This document shows positions 48,411 through 50,911 of a stretch of 64,000 nucleotides of DNA, one piece after another. The position numbers and the translations under genes were made by a program. The notes beneath the pieces are model-generated. The model searched no databases. It was not told the DNA's origin and saw nothing but the letters and a program-made list of their open reading frames with translations. Each line of letters opens with the position of its first letter. Position 1 is the stretch's first letter. Source of the DNA: Alteromonas macleodii (GTDB lineage Bacteria; Pseudomonadota; Gammaproteobacteria; Enterobacterales; Alteromonadaceae); assembly GCF_903772925.1 (NCBI RefSeq), contig NZ_LR812090.1, positions 2,314,333 through 2,378,332 of the forward strand, in the 5' to 3' direction.

Positions 48411-48438
48411 ATTACGCATAATGTATATTATGTTAAAT
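48411..48438 (+). other. dif: dif, chromosome dimer resolution site (XerC/XerD)
   Basis: 28-bp site with left arm attacgcataa, central tgtata and right arm ttatgttaaat. Positions 5-28 are identical to E. coli dif; only three of the first four bases differ. XerC binds the left arm and XerD the right, resolving chromosome dimers under FtsK control. It defines the terminus region of this chromosome. It lies in a gene-poor stretch, as usual. The match is long enough that chance is very unlikely. Confidence 0.96.
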
Positions 48439-48735: not shown

Positions 48736-49100
48736 GCTCTTTGGGTAAAAACTAACGCTGGTAATAGATGTCTATGGTTTTTAATTAACTAATAAATGCT
48801 AGGCCGCTGGAATGCTTTTCCAAATATTCGCGTTTTCATCGATATAGTTATTCAAGGATTAAGAAACTTATGAAGGTCGTTTCGAATAATATAATTAAAC
48901 TAAGCAAAGCGTATCTATTTAGGAATAGCGCTAGTGTTAGGTGCTTGAAAGTTTTCAATTAGTGACTGGCGATGTTCGCGACTAAAAATAACGTTCGTAG
49001 AAGTTAGGCCCAATTAGCACTACGAATATAAAGCATTTAGTTTAGCTGCCACGTTAATTTTAAGCGCAAAGGCAAAAGTATGACTTATAAAAACTATCAC

Positions 49101-49541: not shown

Positions 49542-49575
49542 TTCACGCATGATAATTACAGTTATCATGCGTGAA
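49542..49575. repeat. Perfect 14-bp inverted repeat with 6-bp spacer before the recombinase
   Basis: ttcacgcatgataa (49542-49555), ttacag, ttatcatgcgtgaa (49562-49575). Two symmetric arms around a 6-bp spacer is the layout of a tyrosine-recombinase core site, such as dif, but it could equally be an operator for the recombinase gene that starts 80 bp downstream. Confidence 0.85.
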
Positions 49576-49654
49576 TTATCAAAAATATCAGTACTTTACA
49601 GTATTTCCAACAATCTAGCATAATACACACATATCGTGGCTACCGGGTTATTTA

Positions 49655-50911
49655 ATGTCTTCAAAACCAAACAATTTGCACTTATCTGGGCGCAGAATGA
49701 CTAAAGGCGTTACTAATAATTCTTCGATGAAAATTAAAAAGAGCACTGATAAAGCAAGTTATCCCTCAAACTCAACTGTAGTTGCTAATACTGCCGATAG
49801 TTATTTTACCAAGTCCGAACCTAAGGTACAGTTTTCAAGTAGTGCTACTGAGACTCAAGAAACATCATCCCTCCAGGTAACGTCTAATGACAAGAGTTTC
49901 GAAAATTACTACCAGCAATACTATCAGGACATTTTTACTAAACTTCCTTATAACACACAGCGTGCCTATATAAGTGACTATAACGAATTTGCAATTTTTT
50001 GCAGACAGCACGGCTTTGATGGTTTCAAAAACGATTTTGAACACAATGAAATCTGCATAAAAAATTATGTAGAAGAGTTGTGTCGTTCTCCCCTAGCCTA
50101 TAGAACCATAAAGCGTCGCCTATCCGCACTTAGTAAATTTCTTGGCGTTGCCAAGTTACCTAATCCCATTATTAGGTCAGCGTACTTAAGAGACTTTATT
50201 CGACTGTCACTAATTGAAAATAGAAAGTATAGGCTCTCACATAAACAAGCGGTTCCTCTTACTATCGATATGGTCGAACAGATTAACAATGCAATAATTC
50301 CAGATTCATTGCTGGAACTACGCGACCTCGCTATTATTAATTTGATGTTCGATGCCTTGCTACGCGCCGATGAGCTAGTGAGAGTTTGTGTTGAGGATAT
50401 ATCTGCTCGAAATAACACACTGCTCGTTGTTTCATCTAAAAGCGATCAAACTGGCCAGGGCCAATATCGTTACGTTTCGTCTAGTACCATTTCTATGGTT
50501 CAAGAATATATCAACGAAGCAAATATAGACCCAAAGTCCAAAACTCAAAGACTACCTTCTGATTTACGCGGCTTGCACAAAGGCATTTTGTTCAGGCGAC
50601 TTACGAATCATAAAACTGCACTTTTACCTTTTGACGAAAACATACCAAGCCATAAGGCTAACGTACTTAACTACTCGAGCGTATACAGAATTTGGCAACG
50701 CATTGCTCATCGTGCTGGTATTAGTGAAAACATTACACCACATAGTGGTCGTGTCGGAGGTGCGGTTTCTCTTGCAGAAGATGGGGCATCTCTGCCTGAG
50801 CTTCAACTAGCTGGGGGCTGGCAATCACCTGAAATGCCCGGTCATTATACAAAACAAGCCAACGTAAAACGTGGTGGAATGGCAAAATTATCGGCGAAAC
50901 GAAAAAGATAA
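49655..50911 (+). CDS. Tyrosine recombinase/site-specific integrase
   Basis: A 418-aa DNA-cutting recombinase. The catalytic set is complete by eye: Arg237 (LLRADELVRV), Lys262 (SSKSDQTGQ), His363-x-x-Arg366 (PHSGRVGG), Trp389 (LAGGWQSPE) and the nucleophile Tyr398 (GHYTKQ). The SAM-like core-binding domain covers about 85-165 (LPYNTQRAYISDYNEFAIF). The first 80 residues are Ser/Thr/Asn-rich and probably disordered. It sits 1.2 kb from dif in gene-poor DNA with palindromes, so it may belong to a small integrative element. The start is uncertain: ATG 49655 has no clear ribosome binding site; 49697 and 49727 are alternatives. Confidence 0.9.
   Translation: MSSKPNNLHLSGRRMTKGVTNNSSMKIKKSTDKASYPSNSTVVANTADSYFTKSEPKVQFSSSATETQETSSLQVTSNDKSFENYYQQYYQDIFTKLPYNTQRAYISDYNEFAIFCRQHGFDGFKNDFEHNEICIKNYVEELCRSPLAYRTIKRRLSALSKFLGVAKLPNPIIRSAYLRDFIRLSLIENRKYRLSHKQAVPLTIDMVEQINNAIIPDSLLELRDLAIINLMFDALLRADELVRVCVEDISARNNTLLVVSSKSDQTGQGQYRYVSSSTISMVQEYINEANIDPKSKTQRLPSDLRGLHKGILFRRLTNHKTALLPFDENIPSHKANVLNYSSVYRIWQRIAHRAGISENITPHSGRVGGAVSLAEDGASLPELQLAGGWQSPEMPGHYTKQANVKRGGMAKLSAKRKR

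Follow-up and report, generated by a model that had tools for sequence, protein, structure and literature searches.

The site and the adjacent recombinase

This analysis concerns a short palindrome and the tyrosine recombinase gene that follows it, close to the recombination site dif, in a stretch of 64,000 nucleotides of Alteromonas macleodii (NCBI RefSeq assembly GCF_903772925.1, contig NZ_LR812090.1, positions 2,314,333 to 2,378,332), which as a whole is referred to here as the window. The features of the locus are collected in Table 1. The palindrome reads TTCACGCATGATAA-ttacag-TTATCATGCGTGAA and is a perfect inverted repeat with 14 bp arms and a 6 bp spacer, as an earlier reading of the letters alone (the sequence-only reading) had described; it ends 79 bp before the ATG of the recombinase gene, where that reading had given 80 bp. 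Among inverted repeats with a spacer of up to 12 bp it is the longest perfect one in the window, no other reaching 14 bp, and arms of at least 14 bp occurred in none of 20 simulated Markov-1 windows, a set of only 20. The palindrome and the recombinase are real and above chance. With its 34 bp length and inverted arms around an asymmetric centre the site has the form of those used by Cre-type lox systems, and it can also be read as 13 + 8 + 13, the layout of loxP. When the loci described below were aligned on the site, the mean column identity of the arms was 0.98, compared with 0.28–0.30 in the ungapped flanks, in 35 of 37 loci (a count that excludes genomes G062 and G072); the arm value is conditional on the way the sites were found, by a pattern allowing up to three mismatches together with a tighter expression in the scripts. 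A 21-nt inverted repeat, 90% complementary, with one copy between dif and the site (48952–48972) and the other inside the recombinase gene (50200–50220), is probably due to chance.

The 418-codon open reading frame (ORF) matched PF00589 (9.9e-20), which identifies its product as a tyrosine recombinase. The catalytic residues had been called complete from the sequence, and indeed R237, H363, R366 and Y398 are invariant across 24 aligned relatives, while alignment with Cre brings the K, W and Y of the protein together with their Cre counterparts; the set R, K, H-x-x-R, W and Y is thus present. The protein scored 66.8 bits with the NCBIfam model for XerD (cut-off 329.6) and 55.5 bits with that for XerC (cut-off 335.15), and it resembles Cre more closely than it does the Xer proteins. 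In the predicted structure a variable N-terminal region of about 78 aa, modelled with low confidence, is followed by a conserved two-domain recombinase fold. Judged by sequence and predicted fold, then, the enzyme is of the Cre type. Purifying selection on the gene is strong, as estimated from sequence comparison, with dN/dS values of 0.007–0.066 in eight of 12 pairs, the other four being saturated.

Table 1. Features of the locus in the window
Feature	Position	Strand	Basis or remark
dif site (XerCD), ATTACGCATAATGTATATTATGTTAAAT	48411..48438	+	3 mismatches to E. coli dif
Lox-like recombination site (putative)	49542..49575	+	14-bp arms and asymmetric 6-bp core TTACAG; conserved island in 35 loci; 37/59 genomes
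Left arm, inferred recombinase half-site	49542..49555	+	Arm conservation
6-bp core	49556..49561	+	Both orientations occur among species; other sequences on plasmids
Right arm, inferred recombinase half-site	49562..49575	-	Arm conservation
Cre-type tyrosine recombinase, 418 aa	49655..50911	+	PF00589, catalytic residues, sequence and predicted fold, dN/dS

Distribution and position at the terminus

An ortholog of the recombinase (at least 65% identity over the conserved part) was found in 38 of 59 Alteromonas genomes and the site in 37 of the 59, that is, in 37 of the 38 gene-bearing genomes and in none of the 21 lacking the gene (Fisher p 4e-15, which is indicative only, since the species are related). 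In the sole gene-only genome (G017) the contig starts 187 bp upstream of the match, and every gene-bearing genome with enough flank yielded a site. Thirty of the 37 site-bearing genomes hold a single copy, namely the one accompanying the chromosomal recombinase. Across the order, recombinase matches at E<=1e-25 were obtained from seven of 394 sampled genomes, all seven within Alteromonas, one genus of 114. For the parts and their pairing, these comparisons bring nearly as much certainty as sequence data allow.

The dif site was located by comparison with the E. coli dif sequence, and was found in 52 of the 59 genomes; besides A. pelagimontana (see below), the six genomes without a dif match are assemblies of at least 90 contigs in which both Xer matches are present. 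The lox-like site lies 0.63–1.30 kb from dif in 35 of 37 genomes, the exceptions being G013 and A. pelagimontana, and the locus in the window is collinear over 10.5 kb with that of the closest relative. The chromosomal site is thus placed at the terminus, where GC skew switches, as in chromosome dimer resolution systems. In E. coli, dif is functional within a zone of about 10 kb on either side of its position (PMC2680272), and a distance of 0.63–1.30 kb puts the lox-like site inside a zone of that size. Within the window there is no Tus-like gene near the site. Additional copies resembling dif, but with changes in the XerD arm, were noted at G032:C7:5-28, G032:C18:43094-43117 and G078:C11:110355-110378, one at the start of a contig and one 10.7 kb from dif; they perhaps mark elements integrated by XerCD.

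The carriers mostly retain the conventional system as well. XerD exceeded its cut-off in 57 of the 59 genomes and an XerC-like protein was present in 58 at E<=1e-60 (XerC was recognized from the score that the XerD model gave it, together with its locus), and 35 genomes have the site, the gene and both Xer proteins. In the genome of the window both Xer proteins are encoded elsewhere than at this locus, XerD scoring 385 bits, above the cut-off, and the XerC-like protein 287 bits. In one carrier with a single-contig genome (G066), xerD is split between an ORF of 189 codons and another of 118 (L223:265-1190), perhaps through a frameshift or a sequencing error.

Core sequences on chromosomes and plasmids

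Read in the better orientation, the chromosomal core is TTACAG in 23 of the 37 sites and TTCCAG in ten, and the remaining four are single variants. Its orientation has changed at least seven times on the gene tree, five of these changes being forced by well-supported branches (one genome, G065, contributed half its gene, and five forks of the tree are open). Such freedom is what dimer resolution should produce, because orientation makes no difference to a site whose sole partner is its identical sister.

A second copy, whose complete absence from related genomes the sequence-only reading had named among the grounds for abandoning recombination, is not found in the genome of the window (4.67 Mb, single contig; up to three mismatches) but does occur on a plasmid or plasmid-like contig in six other genomes (G004, G022, G024, G030, G034 and G082). 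In PLSDB the site is present on 19 Alteromonas/Salinimonas records and a related recombinase (E<=1e-50) likewise on 19, with 15 in common; the sequence of the site itself was inspected in 12 of the site-bearing records and the remainder were detected by BLAST, which also gave four partial matches in other genera. Cores on plasmids and plasmid-like contigs are TTACAC, TTAAAC, TTCCGT, ATCCGA, ATCCTG and CAAGCA, none of which equals, in either orientation, any core of the 37 sites accompanying the chromosomal recombinase. In all six genomes that have both, the dif-side core and the plasmid core differ whereas the arms are alike, and the two plasmids of A. macleodii KD01 differ in core from each other. 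Six of 12 plasmid loci (L131, L142, L143, L146, L090 and L093) have a Tus-like gene for replication-terminus binding no more than 6 kb from the site, as if plasmids too held the site at their terminus. One further imperfect site, with core TTATAC, is carried by a 748-kb contig in G035.

Beyond these records the arms recur around other 6-bp cores, mostly beside recombinases that are distantly related to the enzyme. A scan of genome contigs for the exact pattern returned 27 records, 20 from Alteromonas or Salinimonas and seven from elsewhere, of which three are from Acidobacteria, three from Alphaproteobacteria and one from a Thalassotalea metagenome-assembled genome. Five of the seven have a recombinase match, 21–27% identical, within 1 kb of the site, that of L122 being partial (a 190-codon ORF); the two without a match are a 3.9-kb contig and a contig that breaks off at the site and extends 6.9 kb in the other direction. 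On plasmid p1 of Cupriavidus metallidurans (L232:3001-3024) there is a site that is half related, with GCATGATAA and TTATCAAGC on either side of a CTACAC core; a gene with the annotation phage integrase family lies about 1.4 kb away.

The sequence-only reading had also allowed for an autoregulatory operator; in its strict form this explanation gives the palindrome no role other than control of the recombinase gene. The palindrome's place 5' of the gene in all 37 tabulated loci, and so near the start codon in the window, would suit an operator. However, in G062 and G072, where site and gene lie on the opposite side of dif from that in the other genomes, the gene is 2.8–3.3 kb from the site (with a 935-codon ORF between them in G072) and the site has nevertheless stayed 0.9–1.0 kb from dif; plasmid copies lie about 1–18 kb from the related gene or, on four of 19 plasmids, occur where no family member is detected at E<=1e-50; and the core has turned round at least five times. 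An operator is thus insufficient and, as a full explanation, very improbable. Co-occurrence of gene and site, linkage to dif, the Cre-type homology and fold of the enzyme and the recurrence of the site pattern beside its distant relatives support instead the other option of the sequence-only reading, a recombination system complete in itself that sits at the terminus and is separate from XerCD.

Two other explanations assign the chromosomal site another or a lesser role. The site might be an attachment site or a leftover of a mobile element, either a place where a plasmid or phage integrates or a residual plasmid resolution module that the cell does not use. Relatives of both gene and site are plasmid-borne, and the A. 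stellipolaris chromosome (G082) carries a second, imperfect site bearing the core of the strain's own plasmid. An origin from a plasmid is indeed likely; disuse is not, given the strong purifying selection, the fixed place by dif, the single copy in most genomes and the consistent difference between dif-side and plasmid cores, and we consider this explanation unlikely. Its phage version was rejected: viral contigs contained neither an exact site nor a close relative of the enzyme, and phage records gave no match at E<=1e-10. Alternatively, the chromosomal recombinase may act in trans on multimers of plasmids that carry only the site, the chromosomal site being secondary. The arms are identical between chromosome and plasmids, and the four plasmids without a related recombinase could be served in this way, although three of them have another annotated integrase near the site. 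Against this, 30 of 37 genomes show only the copy that accompanies the chromosomal recombinase, and the chromosomal site is kept beside dif in 35 of 37; the proposal strikes us as distinctly unlikely.

A probable single-recombinase system beside or in place of XerCD/dif

We think it probable, from the sequence comparisons, that the site and enzyme form a single-recombinase, Cre/lox-type system for chromosome dimer resolution at the Alteromonas terminus, beside XerCD/dif. Each sister in a dimeric chromosome would contribute one of two identical 34-bp sites; four recombinase monomers would occupy the inverted arms of this pair, and strand exchange across the core would turn the dimer into monomers. 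The differing cores, from what is known of Cre/lox, may keep chromosome and plasmids apart. In most carriers the system would operate alongside XerCD/dif, and in A. pelagimontana it would be the only recognizable system of this kind left.

The A. pelagimontana evidence comes from one complete genome (G069), which keeps the recombinase and the lox-like site (at 4249168). In the 59-genome survey it had no XerD over the cut-off and no XerC-like protein at E<=1e-60, and its best match in the Xer search at E<=1e-3 scored 96 bits and lies beside a second piece with stops. Among the presumed xer neighbours (djlA-like, dsbC, DUF484, HAD, recJ and dapF), the djlA-like gene is adjacent to dsbC and DUF484 adjacent to HAD, with gaps of 152 bp where relatives hold xerD and xerC; tblastn detected no xer remnant in either gap. 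A common scar at the two loci was considered and rejected, as the gaps are equal in length yet unrelated in sequence. No dif was found at up to three of 24 mismatches, which is why this genome stands outside the dif-adjacent set, and of two weak 20-mer dif matches one is 0.51 Mb and the other 0.60 Mb away from the skew maximum. The lox-like site, on the other hand, is 3.6 kb from the cumulative GC-skew maximum of a 444-kb stretch, with a resolution of about 20 kb for the terminus; the distance from dif to the skew maximum in two relatives is 3.4 and 21 kb. Apparently, then, A. pelagimontana has lost xerC, xerD and a recognizable dif and has kept only the Cre/lox-type system, as far as its sequence reveals.

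A number of observations weigh against a role in dimer resolution, or against parts of it. XerC and XerD are both present in 36 of the 38 carriers, where the system is redundant, and 21 of the 59 species live without it. The distance between site and dif in G013 is 31 kb. A single genome shows the loss of XerCD/dif, and other tyrosine-recombinase matches in it might serve. The skew peak there is a plateau (points more than 10 kb away still reach 2641, compared with 2656 at the peak, and the value falls to 2234 only beyond 20 kb), and further skew samples from the first 0.5 Mb are of mixed sign. Finally, the imperfect chromosomal site of A. stellipolaris (core TTACAC, L096:9153, G082:C1:4277152) shares its core with the same strain's plasmid pASTE61-200 (L130), which counters the idea of private cores; it may be a docking place or a scar of plasmid integration. 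Dimer resolution is still our best reading, since it would account best for the terminus position, the single chromosomal copy, the constant arms, the free core orientation and the state of A. pelagimontana. A broader proposal, to which we would give even chances, is that a plasmid-derived Cre/lox-type system, established at the terminus beside dif, became a full second dimer-resolution system and in A. pelagimontana took over entirely from XerC, XerD and dif, and that the chromosome and plasmids of one cell, with recombinase-binding arms in common, use private 6-bp cores as replicon barcodes that prevent fusion.

According to Carnoy and Roten (PMC2731167, citing Leslie and Sherratt 1995), Cre/loxP can suppress filamentation in E. 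coli deficient in dif, provided that loxP is at the terminus, and as of 2009 there was no evidence for a Cre/lox-like system in proteobacteria that lack dif/Xer. A. pelagimontana is a candidate for such a proteobacterium and apparently a natural counterpart of Cre/loxP replacing dif in E. coli. This candidate, together with the 35 genomes that have site, gene and both Xer proteins, makes takeover between dimer-resolution systems directly testable, and the finding also supplies natural lox-like sites in which matched arms are combined with a wide variety of cores. In the open-licence literature we found nothing on Cre-type recombinases in Alteromonas, nor on XerC, a lox-like site and chromosome dimers together; work on Pseudoalteromonas chromids was found and does not concern this system.

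Among known systems, Cre/loxP of P1 resides on a phage-plasmid, whereas the Alteromonas system is chromosomal, beside dif, in much of the genus; loxP agrees with the Alteromonas site at 15 of 34 positions in the better orientation. Closer is SloxP from a plasmid of Shewanella sp. ANA-3 (its sequence was found exactly on NC_008573.1), with 23 of 34 positions alike in the better orientation and an identical central 16 bp, GATAACTGTAATTATC, although its outer arms are unlike, it is plasmid-borne, and a 371-aa recombinase encoded 4 kb from it, presumably SCre, is only 23% identical to the Alteromonas enzyme. The dif half-sites that the sequence-only reading saw in the arms are a weaker likeness than SloxP, and of its comparison with Xer sites the arm-spacer-arm geometry with 6 bp stands while the Xer label gives way to the lox family, which fits better. 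The systems XerCD/dif, XerS/difSL and XerH/difH differ in that the Alteromonas enzyme is Cre-type, far under the XerC and XerD cut-offs, and that its site has perfect arms in the window and forms a second system beside dif. By its description, XerL/dif of the Legionellales is similar in its single recombinase, long uninterrupted inverted repeats and a site near the GC-skew inflection, one member having its gene on a plasmid and sites on both replicons (PMC9765430). XerL is the only known dimer-resolution system in its hosts (PMC9765430), whereas the Alteromonas system coexists with XerCD/dif in nearly all carriers. Because single-recombinase dimer resolution is already known from XerS, XerH and XerL, the Alteromonas case is a variation on that theme and not a new kind of system.
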